Shown here piece after piece: positions 15,967 through 42,633 of a stretch of 56,244 bases of DNA (positions are counted from its first letter, which is position 1; every line of letters starts with the position of its first letter). The stretch is from Hyphomicrobiales bacterium. Its GTDB lineage: Bacteria; Pseudomonadota; Alphaproteobacteria; Rhizobiales; Xanthobacteraceae. Where the stretch lies: positions 1 to 56,244 of the forward strand of contig WHTP01000022.1 in assembly GCA_009377695.1 (NCBI GenBank), given 5' to 3'. Position numbers and translations under genes: made by a program. A model generated the notes under the pieces. The model worked only from the letters and a program-made list of their open reading frames with translations, did not search any database and was not told the origin of the DNA.

Positions 15967-16035
15967 GCGAATAGCGAAAGCGAATAGCAAGGTATCGACT
16001 GACCGACTATTCGCTGCTCACCACTCCCTATTCGC
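15967..16035. repeat. Nested inverted repeat between convergent genes
   Basis: GCGAATAG occurs at 15967-15974 and 15980-15987, and its complement CTATTCGC at 16007-16014 and 16028-16035, giving two nested stems. It sits between the convergent msrP and tctA genes, and the tctA stop codon is in the last arm. It may act as a bidirectional terminator or be a short low-complexity repeat. Confidence 0.5.
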
Positions 16036-17548
16036 TTGTTTTCTCCGCTTCCGCCAACTTGCCGCGCCAGTCGCGCGTGGCCGCCGAGATCGCCGCCAGC
16101 GCGAGCAGTCCGACGCTCACCAACAGCAGCGTAAGTGCGATCGGCCGCTCCAGGAAGATGTGCCAGGTGCCGTTCGACATGATCAGCGATTGGCGCAGCG
16201 ACATCTCGAAGATCGGCGCGATGACGAGCCCGAGCACCAGCGGTGCGGGATCGAAGCCGAATTTCTTTAGCCCATAGCCGACGATGCCGAAAATCAGCAT
16301 GATCCAGACGTCGATGATCGAGTGGTTGACCTCGTAGACGCCGATCACGCAGAACATGATGATCATCGGGTAGAGATACGCGTAGGGGATCCGCAGCAGA
16401 TTCACGAATACGCCGACCAGCGGCAGGTTGAGCAGCAGCAGCATCACGTTGCCGACATACATGGACGCAACGAAGCCCCAGAACACATCGGGATGGTCGT
16501 TGACCAGAGTCGGCCCCGGCGGGATGCCATGGATCAGCAGCGCTGCCATCAGCACCGCAATGACCGGTCCGGTCGGCAGCCCAAGCGCGAGCATCGGCAC
16601 GAAGGCGCCGGTCGAGGCGGCGTTGTTGGCGGCTTCCGGCCCAGCCACGCCCGCCACCGCGCCCTTGCCGAACTCGTCGGGCTGCCGCGACAGCCGCCGC
16701 TCGAGCGCATAAGAGATGAAGCTCGAGATGATGTGCGCGGAGCCCGGGATGATGCCGATGAAAAATCCCAGCACCGAGCCGCGCGCGATGGGCAGCGCCG
16801 ACTCGCGCCATTCCTGGCGGGTCGGCAGGAGTTCGCGCAGTCGCGGGGCGGTCACGCCGCCTTTGACCTGTCGGCTGGGCGTCGCGAGCAGTTCGCCGAG
16901 CCCAAACAATCCGACCGCGACCGGCACGATGCCGATGCCGTCGCCCAGCTCGGAAATCCCGAAGGCGAAGCGGAAGTGGCCTGTCATCACGTCGATGCCG
17001 ACAGTGCCGAGCACGAGCCCGAGCGACGCCATCAGCAGGGTCCGGATCAGCGACGTCGTCGACATGTAGGCGAGGAAGATCAGCCCGAGCACGAGCAGCG
17101 CGGTGTATTCGGGCGGGCCGAAGCCGAGCGCGAAGGCGGCGAGCGGCGGCGCCAACAGCGTGAGCATGATGACGCCGAAAGTGCCGGCGATGAACGAGCC
17201 CATGCCCGCAATGCAGAGCGCTGCGCCGGCCCGGCCCTTCTTCGCCATGGCGTTGCCGTCGATGCAGGTCATCACCGAGGCGGCTTCGCCCGGGATGCGC
17301 AGCAGGATCGACGTGGTCGAGCCGCCATATTGCGAGCCGTAATAGATGCCGGCGAGCATCACGATCGCGCGGGTGGCATCGAGTCCGAAGGTCAGTGGCA
17401 GCAGGATCGAGATGCCGGCGAGCGGGCCGAGGCCGGGCAGCATGCCGACCAGCGTGCCGACCAAGCAGCCAATGAACGCGAACCACAGCACGTCCGGCCG
17501 CAACGCGACCGAAAAGCCAAGCAGGAGACTGTTGAGAACGTCCTCCAC
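16028..17548 (-). CDS. tctA: Tripartite tricarboxylate transporter, large permease TctA
   Basis: 506 residues with about eleven to twelve membrane helices. Diagnostic strings include GMLPGLGPLAGISILLPLTF, GIYYGSQYGGSTTSILLRIP and the internally repeated GIIPGSAHIISSFISYALE. TctA forms the inner-membrane channel of the TctABC secondary carrier and works with TctB and the periplasmic TctC. The start is a GTG at 17548, three bases after the tctB stop, so translation is probably coupled. The substrate class is di- or tricarboxylates or aromatic acids. Confidence 0.93.
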   Translation of the reverse strand: MEDVLNSLLLGFSVALRPDVLWFAFIGCLVGTLVGMLPGLGPLAGISILLPLTFGLDATRAIVMLAGIYYGSQYGGSTTSILLRIPGEAASVMTCIDGNAMAKKGRAGAALCIAGMGSFIAGTFGVIMLTLLAPPLAAFALGFGPPEYTALLVLGLIFLAYMSTTSLIRTLLMASLGLVLGTVGIDVMTGHFRFAFGISELGDGIGIVPVAVGLFGLGELLATPSRQVKGGVTAPRLRELLPTRQEWRESALPIARGSVLGFFIGIIPGSAHIISSFISYALERRLSRQPDEFGKGAVAGVAGPEAANNAASTGAFVPMLALGLPTGPVIAVLMAALLIHGIPPGPTLVNDHPDVFWGFVASMYVGNVMLLLLNLPLVGVFVNLLRIPYAYLYPMIIMFCVIGVYEVNHSIIDVWIMLIFGIVGYGLKKFGFDPAPLVLGLVIAPIFEMSLRQSLIMSNGTWHIFLERPIALTLLLVSVGLLALAAISAATRDWRGKLAEAEKTSE

Positions 17549-17551
17549 GGT

Positions 17552-17998
17552 TCAGAACCAGAGGAAGCCGCGTTCGAGCGGCGCCTTGAGCGCCTTGCCG
17601 AACAGCCAGTAGGCGAACAGCGTCAGGGCGATGCTGTAGACGGCGGCGATCAGCGCGTTGCGGCGCTCGACCAAGACCAGCAGCGTGAACACGAGGAATG
17701 ACATGGTGATGAGGAAGCCGACCTTTTGATACGCAAAGATAGCGATCGCGGTGGTCGACGCCACCAGGATCGCATGCCAGCGGTCGCTCCAGTCGATCTC
17801 GATGAACGGCCGGCTGGTGTTGGCAGTAATGATGATCATCACCGCAAACGCGATCATCAGCCCGGCCATCAGCTTGGGCATCATGCCGGCACCGGGCGAC
17901 GAAAGGGTGCCGAACGGCAGGTCGCCGCTCAACGCGAACACGAGCAGGCCGAGCGCAACGAAGAAGATGCCAGCAACGTGATCGGAGCGGAGGGTCAT
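17552..17998 (-). CDS. tctB: Tripartite tricarboxylate transporter, small permease TctB
   Basis: 148 residues with four predicted membrane helices, the usual TctB form. The N-terminus DHVAGIFFVALGLLVFALS and the segment SSPGAGMMPKLMAGLMIAF are typical. It is the small membrane partner of TctA. Its ATG overlaps the stop of the upstream DUF559 gene (ATGA) and has a GAGGAATCC ribosome site inside that gene. In most genomes tctB directly follows tctC; here a foreign-looking gene lies between. Confidence 0.88.
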   Translation of the reverse strand: MTLRSDHVAGIFFVALGLLVFALSGDLPFGTLSSPGAGMMPKLMAGLMIAFAVMIIITANTSRPFIEIDWSDRWHAILVASTTAIAIFAYQKVGFLITMSFLVFTLLVLVERRNALIAAVYSIALTLFAYWLFGKALKAPLERGFLWF

Positions 17999-18513
17999 GA
18001 AGGATTCCTCGCGCCCTTTGAGCGGTGCTGCCCACGTTCCCCAGCAGTCGTTGTTTTATAAGTCGGTGCCGCGGGTTGGCCCCTCCCCCCGCGGAGCGAA
18101 GCGGAGTGGCGGGGAGGGGTTGGGGGTGGGGGGTGCTTCGTCACCGCGTCGTCCAATGCGGATTGAACGACAGTCAGCACGCCATCGATGTTACTCAGCA
18201 CATCATTGTTCCAGAACCGCAGTACGCGATAGCCGCGTGAAACGAGAAACTTGGTTCGGACTTCATCGGCGGCCACTTGATTTGCATGTCCATGCTGCCC
18301 GCCGTCGAGCTCAATGATGAGCCGCAGATTGTGACAGGCGAAGTCGGTGAAATAAGGGCCGATCGTTGCCTGCCTGCGAAAGTGTGACCGCTCAGGAGCG
18401 AGGCGACGGAGGTGCCACCATAGCTTTCGCTCCGCCATCGTCATGTCGCGGCGAAGTTTGCGTGCGCGCGGCACGCGCCTATCAAACTTGCGATGGTTGT
18501 GTTCGATTGCCAC
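17995..18513 (-). CDS. DUF559 endonuclease-like protein, enclosed by inverted G-rich repeats
   Basis: 172 residues from a GTG at 18513. The core at about residues 14-120 is the DUF559 (Vsr-like, PD-(D/E)XK type) fold, with ARKLRRDMTMAERKLWWHLR, FRRQATIGPYFTDFACHNLR and the catalytic-type LIIELDGGQH. It is a predicted nuclease of unknown role, related to very-short-patch repair and some homing enzymes. After residue ~128 the protein runs through the left repeat, giving a Pro/Arg-rich tail (PPPPTPPRHSASLRGGRG). It interrupts the tct operon between tctC and tctB. Repeats at 18078-18135 and 18517-18567 bound it in inverted orientation. Confidence 0.8.
   Translation of the reverse strand: MAIEHNHRKFDRRVPRARKLRRDMTMAERKLWWHLRRLAPERSHFRRQATIGPYFTDFACHNLRLIIELDGGQHGHANQVAADEVRTKFLVSRGYRVLRFWNNDVLSNIDGVLTVVQSALDDAVTKHPPPPTPPRHSASLRGGRGQPAAPTYKTTTAGERGQHRSKGARNPS
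18078..18135. repeat. G-rich inverted repeat, left arm of the DUF559 unit
   Basis: A C-rich block, a GCGGAGCGAAGC core and a long G-rich tail (GGGGAGGGGTTGGGGGTGGG). The reverse complement of the repeat at 18517-18567 matches it closely. The G-rich tails of both arms point inward toward the DUF559 gene. The left arm is translated as the tail of that protein. Confidence 0.8.
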
Positions 18514-18516
18514 GGC

Positions 18517-18567
18517 GGCCCCCCACCCCAGACCCCTCCCCGCCGCTTCGCGGGGGGAGGGGAGCGG
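18517..18567. repeat. G-rich inverted repeat, right arm of the DUF559 unit
   Basis: The mirror copy of 18078-18135, starting next to the GTG start codon of the DUF559 gene. The same arms with only a short spacer between them occur at 32085-32215. Confidence 0.8.
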
Positions 18568-18621: not shown

Positions 18622-19632
18622 CTAGCCCGACACCTTGCCGATCGATTTCACCGCCGCTTCGACGCGCTTCGCATCCTCGTTCCAGAATTTCGCAAATTCT
18701 GGTTGATCGAGATAGGCGACCACGTCGCCAAGATTGTTGATCGCCTTGCCGAAGGCTGGCGCGGCCACCGCCTGCTTGGCGTCCGCGCGCAGCCGCTTCA
18801 CGATCGCATCGGGCGTACCTTTGGGCGCAAACAGCCCGACCCAGAGCGAGAACTCGACATCGTAGCCGAGCTCCTTCAGCGTCGGCACGTCGGGCATCGA
18901 CGCGGCGCGCTTCGCCGAGAAGCAGGCAAGCGCCTTGAGCTTGCCGGCCTTGGCTTGCGCATTGGCTGCCGCGATCGACGACACCAGAACCTGCGAATTG
19001 TTGCCGAGGATCGCATTCAGCGCCGGCCCGCCGCCGGCGGTCGGGAGGTGACGCATCTGGATGCCCGCCGCCTGCATGAACAGTGCGGTCGGCAGATGCA
19101 GCGCGCCGTAGAGTCCCGACGAGCTGAAGATGATCCCGTTCGGGCGCTTCTTGGCGTCGTCGACCAACTCCTTCAGATTGTTATACGGCTGCTTGTCATT
19201 GACGACGAGCACCATCGGCCCTTCGGTAAAGCGCGCGATGGGGCTGAAGCTCTCGCGCGTGAATTTGGGTTCGCGGCCGAACAGCTTGTCGACCTCGGCA
19301 AAGCCGGAGATCGAAACGATGTGCAGCAGCAGCGTGTAGCCGTCGGGCCTCGCCGAGGCCACGAACTGTCCGCCGACCGCGCCGGCAGCCCCTGGTTTGT
19401 TCTCGACCACCGCCGGCTGCTTGAGGAGCGGCTCGATCGCGGCGGCGAACGGACGGCCGACGACATCAGTCGCGCCGCCCGGCGGAAACGGATTGATGAA
19501 CGTCACCGGCCGCGAAGGATAGACGTCCTGAGCGGCGGCGGAGCCGGCGGCAAACGTCGCGACCGCGGCGGCCGAGCCCAGCATGAAATCGCGCCTGTCG
19601 AAATGGCGCCTGTCGATGTTACCCTGGTCCAT
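18622..19632 (-). CDS. tctC: TctC/Bug-family periplasmic binding protein
   Basis: 336 residues. A Tat signal (DRRDFMLGSAAAVATF, about residues 12-33) is cut after AAAQ. The mature protein has the Bug signature: YPSRPVTFINPFPPGGATDV near the start, then VENKPGAAGAVGG, SSGLYGALHL and SLWVGLFAPKGTP. It binds a carboxylate in the periplasm and delivers it to TctAB. Its ATG follows GGAGGGAACC. It is the first gene of tctC-(DUF559)-tctB-tctA and is divergent from the FAD monooxygenase, a hint that the transported acid may feed that enzyme. Confidence 0.92.
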   Translation of the reverse strand: MDQGNIDRRHFDRRDFMLGSAAAVATFAAGSAAAQDVYPSRPVTFINPFPPGGATDVVGRPFAAAIEPLLKQPAVVENKPGAAGAVGGQFVASARPDGYTLLLHIVSISGFAEVDKLFGREPKFTRESFSPIARFTEGPMVLVVNDKQPYNNLKELVDDAKKRPNGIIFSSSGLYGALHLPTALFMQAAGIQMRHLPTAGGGPALNAILGNNSQVLVSSIAAANAQAKAGKLKALACFSAKRAASMPDVPTLKELGYDVEFSLWVGLFAPKGTPDAIVKRLRADAKQAVAAPAFGKAINNLGDVVAYLDQPEFAKFWNEDAKRVEAAVKSIGKVSG

Positions 19633-32084: not shown

Positions 32085-32215
32085 GCTCCCTCCCCCCACG
32101 CGAAGCGTGGTGGGGAGGGCAGGGGTGGGGGGTGGCGCGATTGAGTGCGACCGCTCGACCCCCCACCCCCAACCCCTCCCCACCACTCGCTATCGCTCGC
32201 GGGAGGAGGGGAGCC
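32085..32215. repeat. G-rich inverted repeat pair without a gene (MITE-like form of the DUF559 unit)
   Basis: Left arm 32085-32134 (CCCTCCCCCCACGCGAAGCG, then GGTGGGGAGGG...GGGGTGGGG) and right arm 32159-32215 in opposite orientation, with about 24 bp between. The arms and their orientation match those at 18078-18135 and 18517-18567, where a DUF559 gene occupies the centre. A ~20-bp imperfect direct repeat (32049-32068 and 32074-32093) adjoins it. Confidence 0.75.
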
Positions 32216-42472: not shown

Positions 42473-42633
42473 GCCCTCCCCCCTTTGTGGGGAGAGGGCT
42501 GCTCGAAAAGTGCCACGTGCTCGGATGGGTGTGGGGTTTCCGTTGGAGAATCCGTTTGGCGAAACGACCCCTCACGCCATCATGACTCGTTGCGCCGCTG
42601 TCATGCCCTCTCCCCACAAGGGGGAGAGGGAGC
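42473..42633. repeat. GCCCTC(T/C)CCCC inverted repeat pair inside the cyanate operon
   Basis: GCCCTCCCCCCTTTGTGGGG with AGAGGGCT (42473-42500) and GCCCTCTCCCCACAAGGGGG with AGAGGGAGC (42605-42633). Each arm is itself a hairpin, about 105 bp apart, between the binding-protein and permease genes. The stretch carries no gene. It could form strong mRNA stems that favour the binding-protein message. Confidence 0.7.

Follow-up and report, generated by a model that had tools for sequence, protein, structure and literature searches.

A gene for a DUF559 nuclease and the two inverted repeat arms that enclose it in the tct operon of a Hyphomicrobiales bacterium probably constitute one mobile unit, and the same arms, arranged as gene-less pairs, are probably also dispersed repeats. 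The evidence comprises the bracketing of DUF559 genes by arms, the co-diversification of nuclease and arm type, the occupation of many unrelated sites, the presence or absence of cassettes with bare hairpins, and one duplicate within a genome, all of which are shown below. A mobile unit composed of nuclease and arms is well supported by these data, and action of the nuclease on its arms is inferred, in the absence of cleavage data, to be the most likely mechanism. Coordinates refer to the window, which is the whole stretch of 56,244 nucleotides that was analysed (Table 1).

The DUF559 gene between tctC and tctB and its flanking arms

The original prediction placed an endonuclease gene between tctC and tctB, and this was confirmed by the Pfam calls of DUF559, TctA, TctB and TctC. 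The DUF559 model (PF04480) scores 120.1 bits against a curated cut-off of 20.6, and the other Pfam model touching the protein, MTES_1575 nuclease, is sub-threshold. The stop codon of the gene overlaps the start codon of tctB in a common ATGA. No transposase gene is found within the unit, whose sole gene matches DUF559, and no cytosine methyltransferase adjoins it, an observation restricted to the immediate neighbours tctB and tctC. The two arms are inverted relative to each other, with both tails directed towards the DUF559 gene. Residues ~127-145 of the 172-residue product are encoded by the 3'-side arm and are followed by a further 27 residues. The inverted-flank score of the locus is 24, compared with a maximum of 17 among 2280 random positions. 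Thus, the predicted inward-facing inverted arms, start codon beside one arm, protein tail translated through the other, overlap with tctB and lack of a transposase all held. As single-stranded DNA the 5'-side hairpin folds with -16.9 kcal/mol (z -1.27), which is unexceptional relative to shuffles of such G/C-rich DNA, and the 3'-side hairpin with -14.3 kcal/mol (z -1.09 against shuffles).

Table 1. Features of the window, with positions, strand and basis or remark.
Feature	Position	Strand	Remark
tctA	16028-17548	-	Pfam PF01970
tctB, downstream neighbour of DUF559 gene	17552-17998	-	Pfam PF07331
DUF559 (PF04480) nuclease gene	17995-18513	-	GTG start at 18513, 172 aa; Pfam 120 bits
Nuclease domain of DUF559 gene	18154-18471	-	domain placement
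Hairpin, 3'-side arm of DUF559 gene	18080-18119	+	protein tail translated through hairpin
Inward G-rich tail, 3'-side arm	18122-18135 (end approximate)	+	sequence reading
Inward G-rich tail, 5'-side arm	18519-18529	-	sequence reading; tails in general by mirror test
Hairpin, 5'-side arm of DUF559 gene	18533-18562	-	C-rich strand, loop, G-rich strand, outside to inside on minus strand
tctC, upstream neighbour of DUF559 gene	18622-19632	-	Pfam PF03401
Gene-less inverted pair of like arms	32087-32212	32087-32130 +, 32162-32212 -	tails inward, ~30 nt apart; hairpin-plus-tail detector

A hairpin with a tail was obtained from 319 of 388 arm ends, of which 317 were compared. The tail resembles the G strand of the stem better as a mirror image than as a direct copy at 159 ends, worse at 26 and equally well at 132. 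Such a mirror-symmetric tail is what an intrastrand triplex needs. The arms, comprising a C stem, a G stem and a mirrored second G stem, are thus assigned to the intrastrand-triplex class; the mirror symmetry is shown, while formation of a triplex is inferred from sequence alone. Arms sort into a few types according to stem and tail, and where both ends of a cassette could be typed the two nearly always agree. In some arms, stem and tail are separated by a second hairpin, which is variable and differs in its letters between the two ends. Elsewhere in the window, at 42473-42536, the hairpin-plus-tail detector gave a single weak match.

The AlphaFold2 model of the nuclease has a mean pLDDT of 88.8 (residues 1-128). 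Its closest solved structure is 3hrl, an endonuclease-like protein, followed by the catalytic domain of I-Bth0305I (3r3p; profile match E=7.6e-5, Foldseek 1.1e-4), and Vsr was retrieved by Foldseek at 5e-3, ranked behind two mitochondrial ribosome chains. Toxin B subunits, considered as relatives in the PDB, were rejected because their matches, at E >0.1, are chance. Residues invariant in 44 sequences include E28, D57, E68, D70, H74 and D83, and E28, D57, H74 and D83 may represent the E, D, H, D motif of the EDxHD family. The DUF559 nuclease is therefore described as a one-domain protein related to EDxHD homing endonucleases and Vsr, for which a homologous catalytic domain is established and cutting is inferred. 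Only 2 matching records were found in phages.

The source assembly of the window (5.85 Mb) contains four DUF559 genes. Two of the others, downstream of pheS (L001; TIGR00468) and ccmE (L002; PF03100), display the same layout with different letters, and the genes on their far sides, read by eye, are what we take to be pheT and ccmF, respectively. At the fourth match (L004, G000:C118:2519-2824) arms are not visible. The DUF559 domain of L004 is part of a 412-aa open frame, preceded by what we take, by eye, to be an RNA methyltransferase domain, and weak matches in long frames elsewhere look similar.

Bracketing of DUF559 genes and co-diversification with arm type

DUF559 was identified in 109 of the 119 genomes sampled from the family, with 353 matches in total. 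The family set comprised 114 loci, namely the four of the window's genome, 30 returned by profile search and 80 from the best-scoring rows of that search; bracketing was counted at 112, two being left out for short flanks. Matched inverted arms (score >=18) are present at 98 of these 112 loci and at none of 2280 random positions within the same loci, the remaining 14 loci scoring <18. Named genomes from several phyla were scanned as well, and the best 80 of 575 confirmed loci were retained, from which two that were too short and one N-run artefact (L230) were removed; 4 of the 80 also belong to the family set. Here 59 of 77 loci score >=18, against 0 of 1560 random positions. Bracketed named loci are found, among other taxa, in Alpha-, Beta- and Gammaproteobacteria, Desulfobacterales, Chloroflexi SAR202, Gastranaerophilales, a cyanobacterial MAG, Binatia, Rickettsiales and FCPU426, and those below 18 include Devosia, Microvirga, Methyloligella, Chitinimonas, Bosea and Jiella. 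The detector of hairpins with tails gave a density of 6.43 elements/kb up to 150 nt from the nuclease domain, which fell to 0.03 between 300 and 600 nt and stood at 0.11 between 2 and 4 kb, corresponding to 219, 2 and 34 matches, with 5, 0 and 2 in the reversed-sequence control. Bracketing by chance is thereby ruled out, and the association of DUF559 with inverted arms is real and general. The original prediction would have been refuted had the arms not accompanied DUF559 genes elsewhere, and this refutation failed. Arm types were set after inspection of the arms, and the score test is independent of them. At one locus (L096), each side of the cassette looks like a whole inverted pair and not a single arm.

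Weak DUF559 matches served as a control (28 matches from 21 family genomes, 25 with full flanks). Arms were found at 0 of 20 weak matches located in frames of >=379 aa, which are probably fused genes (highest score 14), and at 4 of 5 short or broken rows, L333 being the one without arms. Two of these rows (L339 and L352, G022) are halves of one stop-broken DUF559 gene that retains matched arms, and two short remnants (L354 in G078 and L357 in G058) still lie between matched arms. The absence of arms from long frames and their persistence on short or broken copies indicate that arms accompany the stand-alone gene, even during its decay. None of 29 pheS genes is bracketed (one of 30 was left out). 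GIY-YIG genes of the same family, intended as a negative control, are bracketed at 15 of 29 loci (score >=18; random 0/580; one of 30 left out), with palindromes that include CGTCATTGCCGGGCTTGTCCCGGCAATCCA, apparently of the CGTC class, and CCTCATCCTGAGGAG. Thus, bracketing by inverted palindromes is not exclusive to DUF559. No triplex arms were seen at GIY-YIG genes in the best alignments inspected. The bracketed GIY-YIG genes, which lie within L300-L329 (e.g. L309, L312, L319, L316 and L329), are small, and several of their palindromes are CGTC-type by eye.

Arm type follows the lineage of the nuclease. When each nuclease is compared with its nearest counterpart in another genome, the two share an arm type in 95 of 100 cases; with homologous sites excluded the figure is 91 of 100, and 2000 shuffles gave 31 on average and never more than 48. 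A quick tree built from 114 domains, of which 100 carry a label, shows 7 changes of arm type, the minimum in 200 shuffles being 41. Both tests leave out the 14 of 114 loci without an arm type. Labelled nucleases residing in one genome agree in type in only 12 of 56 pairs, which indicates that type is a property of the nuclease and not of the genome. Among type I nucleases, those with plain arms separate from those whose arms bear the second hairpin, with 2 changes among 27 against a minimum of 4 in 500 shuffles; this tree leaves out 5 mixed-arm cassettes. Nuclease and arm type thus co-diversify.

Site turnover and dispersed arms

The 114 loci of the family set resolve into 66 clusters of homologous sites, of which 55 are singletons. 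The largest cluster, pheS-pheT, comprises 16 loci, each from a different genome, and two clusters contain more than one arm type, reflecting either re-occupation or chaining of clusters. Identity between nearest nucleases at unrelated sites has a median of 67%, and only one clear recent duplicate was found, suggesting that most movements are old. This duplicate, in G075, consists of two cassette copies 35 kb apart that are 93.6% identical over 455 nt and continue into unrelated sequence. The similarity ends about the edge of the left arm and ~20 nt beyond the right hairpin. The copies are flanked by AT..AT and AA..AA, and a target duplication is not definable from the pair.

Gene-free counterparts of occupied sites were identified in relatives. 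In G008, which belongs to the same genus as the window's source, the DUF559 gene is missing and 179 nt separate tctC (83% identical) from tctB (71%), in agreement with the proposal that an insertion splits the operon; the gap contains one bare hairpin and the right flank is similar. A related cassette occupies tctC-tctB in G052, also of this genus. At pheS-pheT there is one bare hairpin in G008, a worn hairpin in G117 and nothing in G052, while G001, of another genus, carries a gene-less inward arm pair, and G048, of the same genus as G001, has a DUF559 match adjoining pheS. By eye, both G008 sites read left flank, complete right hairpin, right flank. Among 30 pheS loci, 3 carry a cassette, 17 a gap of 2-18 nt and 10 other sequence, the last including one outward arm pair, one lone arm and one incomplete locus. 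Of 12 ccmE-ccmF loci, 3 carry a cassette (L289, L290 and L297, DUF559 confirmed), 6 have armless gaps of 2-54 nt and 2 are incomplete; in a second ccmE-ccmF copy in the window's genome, worn pieces resembling arms lie within a gap of 275 nt. Turnover of cassettes at their sites is therefore shown. That the bare hairpins are remnants of loss is inferred, since the comparison is not polarised by a species tree and the hairpins could instead be pre-insertion targets. The comparison with strains lacking the insert, proposed as a check of the original prediction, thus yielded bare-hairpin sites, and a target duplication was not definable.

Two alternatives that dispense with mobility bear on these data. 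The first is vertical inheritance, in which the gene is an ancient operon member and the arms are local regulatory hairpins. Persistence at a site is indeed common, as the pheS-pheT cluster (16/114 loci, each in a different genome) attests. However, 55 of the site clusters formed by the 114 loci are singletons, the gene is missing from pheS-pheT and ccmE-ccmF in some relatives, and arms also occur in its absence, all of which argues against this account; it is very unlikely, and plain vertical inheritance falls short as a full explanation. The original prediction would also have failed had all relatives carried the gene at one place; the 66 site clusters and the gene-free sites at tct, pheS-pheT and ccmE-ccmF show that they do not. 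The second holds that DUF559 is a Vsr-like host repair enzyme for folded or mismatched DNA at these motifs, the bracketing reflecting selected proximity to the substrate and not mobility. The fold similarity to Vsr and the role of Caulobacter VsrA in the DNA damage response (PMC12907096) favour this idea, but it leaves unexplained the 66 site clusters, the relatives without the gene at conserved sites, the within-genome duplicate and the placement of one arm per end in inverted order, and we consider it highly improbable.

The arms are not confined to cassettes. A gene-less inverted pair lies in the window itself (32087-32212; fold z -3.22 for the left arm and -0.98 for the right), between genes that we take, from their open reading frames, to be SDR-like and histidinol-dehydrogenase-like, and is read here as a miniature element without nuclease. 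A symmetric hairpin pattern gave zero matches in the window's genome and was abandoned for patterns derived from aligned arms. With these, exact type I arms were found in 92 of 119 genomes and type IV arms in 51 of 119, the reversed-pattern controls being zero throughout, and gene-less arms amount to tens of copies. Outside cassettes, type I arms have a median of 18 in genomes with a sampled type I nuclease vs 2 in those without (p=8.9e-6), and type IV arms 6.5 vs 0 (p=2.6e-4), lineage not being controlled in either comparison. In the 10 genomes without DUF559, the type I arm is absent from 8 and the type IV arm from all 10; where the DUF559 matches are all weak (21 genomes), 6 genomes hold >=10 type I arms, so arms can be abundant even when no intact nuclease was found. 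The original prediction, which treated the arms as bounds of a cassette, is corrected in this respect: they are not private to it and represent a dispersed repeat of the BoxC/PIT/triplex class.

The pairs described next were picked by eye from a subset of the pattern matches. Among 34 inward type I pairs, 30 are spaced by 14-136 nt and 4 by 349-372 nt. In the reverse test, DUF559 was present within 9 of 9 inward pairs of roughly gene-size spacing (~220-400 nt; 4 type I, 5 type IV), seven being identified by coordinates against DUF559 matches, together with L281 (intact) and L282 (decayed). Like arms are found at both ends of 27 of 32 type I cassettes; in contrast, 26 of 30 gene-less pairs are of mixed sort, compared with 5 of the 32 cassettes (p=2.4e-8), which suggests that gene-less pairs are not simple deletions of cassettes. 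Each mixed pair joins one plain arm and one second-hairpin arm, the two sorts belonging to separate nuclease lineages. It is possible that gene-less pairs need two nuclease lineages. Separately, dimers of type IV arms with outward tails, ~120 nt long, closely similar and with a variable spacer, were observed at 13 places in G074 (L268-L280) and 5 places in G044 (L283-L287), and are interpreted here as an amplified variant of opposite polarity.

Gene-less arms raise a third alternative, termed the landing pad, in which the arms are an independent repeat spread by other means and DUF559 genes home into pre-existing arm pairs. The tens of arms without a gene, found also in genomes with only weak DUF559 matches, and the inward pair without a gene that G001 carries at pheS-pheT, given that pheS adjoins a DUF559 match in its same-genus relative G048, are in its favour. 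Against it, arm type tracks the nuclease tree across non-homologous sites (91/100), which would need a nuclease-specific choice of pad; type I cassettes are like-armed where gene-less pairs are mixed; and in the G075 duplicate arms and gene are present together. The landing pad is accordingly judged unlikely, and a single mobile unit of nuclease and arms remains the preferred reading.

Proposed mechanism and relation to known systems

For the mobile unit we propose that the nuclease recognises its own type of arm and most likely nicks or cuts DNA there, the substrate being either the duplex or a strand folded during replication. Repair from a cassette-carrying copy, or rejoining of arm to arm, would then copy the unit to a new place or remove it, and loss would leave one bare hairpin behind. 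Paired arms without a gene, if still acted on in trans by the nuclease, would become dispersed repeats. In the window, the unit occupies the gap between tctC and tctB. One arm adjoins the start of the DUF559 gene, whose stop overlaps the start of tctB, such that the operon would stay translated. It is inferred that the arms are cut, that repair follows, that the nuclease acts in trans and that bare hairpins are remnants. Hence, the repeat-bound nuclease cassette of the original prediction is supported, and its spread by cutting or recombination is still inference. Among the points that limit the case for a mobile unit, there are no cleavage data, target duplication is not established, and some homologous sites contain more than one arm type.

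The arms resemble the BoxC/PIT/TMECO repeats, noted in E. coli in the 1990s as BoxC/PIT/triplex repeats and described by Holder et al. 2015, who counted 3610 TMECO in 262 genomes (PMC4666352). Genome instability has been tied to these repeats and a biophysical study of the triplex motif reported, and no mobility-providing activities were found around the motifs by the authors (PMC4666352), the main text of whose paper contains no word starting 'nuclease' or 'ycjD'. DUF559 arms share with TMECO the C-rich stem, the G-rich stem and the second G-rich stem, and gene-less arm pairs are often inverted and composed of two sorts, as are all five E. coli pairs (PMC4666352). In contrast with the published pattern, CCCTCNCCC N3-6 GGGNGAGGG N3 GGGNGAGGG (PMC4666352), the window arms carry CCCCTCCCC stems and do not meet it strictly. 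Letter-for-letter agreement with the strict pattern is limited to 28 of the 228 ends in the family set and 15 of the 160 in the named set; the remaining ends, including those of the window, differ in their stems, have longer loops or contain a second hairpin. With so few exact fits, the arms are assigned to the wider BoxC/PIT/triplex class.

In E. coli, K-12 included, the DUF559 gene ycjD likewise stands beside BoxC-like motifs, in the context sapF-ycjD-fabI (L177 and L183). The arrangement differs in that an inward arm is visible only at the 3' end in strain KE47 (L177), with none seen 5'; in MG1655 (L183) the 3' arm is worn and another motif lies further downstream. A place covering >=80% of the sapF-ycjD query is present in 3361 of 5426 E. 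coli genomes. Loci without ycjD (L184, L185 and L187) were examined as empty sites for exact ends and rejected, as they carry efflux genes there and the ends are undefinable. Matching places per genome average 4.3 with ycjD (19 rows) vs 2.2 without (10 rows), counted in 29 of 30 rows (one without sapF was left out); no weight is given to this difference, as the query contains ycjD plus the motif and lineage was not controlled.

Among nucleases, the EDxHD enzyme I-Bth0305I has a homologous catalytic domain, and a DUF559 gene has already been filed under EDxHD (PMC9403480); the DUF559 unit differs in lying outside introns and inteins, in lacking an added DNA-binding domain and in bearing repeat arms at its bounds. 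Vsr has a similar fold, whereas the window gene adjoins transport genes and not a methyltransferase. In Caulobacter cells without a cytosine methyltransferase, the DNA damage response depends on the DUF559 protein VsrA (PMC12907096).

The spread of BoxC/PIT/triplex repeats has so far been unexplained, and a self-bracketing nuclease that co-diversifies with them is a concrete candidate for the missing partner, which allows a test with no more than one small protein and a short DNA substrate. If the mobile unit is real, stand-alone DUF559 genes, still named for a domain of unknown function, acquire a role, and bacterial repeat families have recruited unrelated nucleases in the same layout. A bolder reading, for which we see no better grounds to believe than to doubt, is that bacteria contain at least three parallel nuclease-palindrome mobile systems with unrelated nucleases: HUH with GTAG REPs, which is known, DUF559/EDxHD with BoxC/PIT, and GIY-YIG with CGTC-type or other palindromes. 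Were it true, the mixed gene-less pairs would be miniature elements with one arm from each of two nuclease lineages.

The literature searched, which mostly excluded subscription papers, yielded no report connecting DUF559 with BoxC/PIT/triplex repeats. The closest parallel is the REP/REPIN-RAYT system (REPtron), where RAYT is a Y1 HUH transposase associated with GTAG REPs (in part PMC3733652). Palindromic repeats have been sorted into GTAG and CGTC classes, of which the CGTC repeats seem to be without a dedicated transposase (Di Nocera et al. 2013, PMC3733652). Like the REPtron, the DUF559 unit combines dispersed repeats of hairpin form with miniature inverted pairs, and its nuclease gene is flanked by those repeats, but the GTAG tag is absent from both window arms and the protein is a DUF559 (PD-(D/E)XK/Vsr-like) nuclease, with no Y1 HUH transposase. 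Thus, within the literature searched, dispersed palindromes with a dedicated nuclease are a kind of system already known from REP-RAYT, and the pairing of DUF559 with triplex-class repeats is new.
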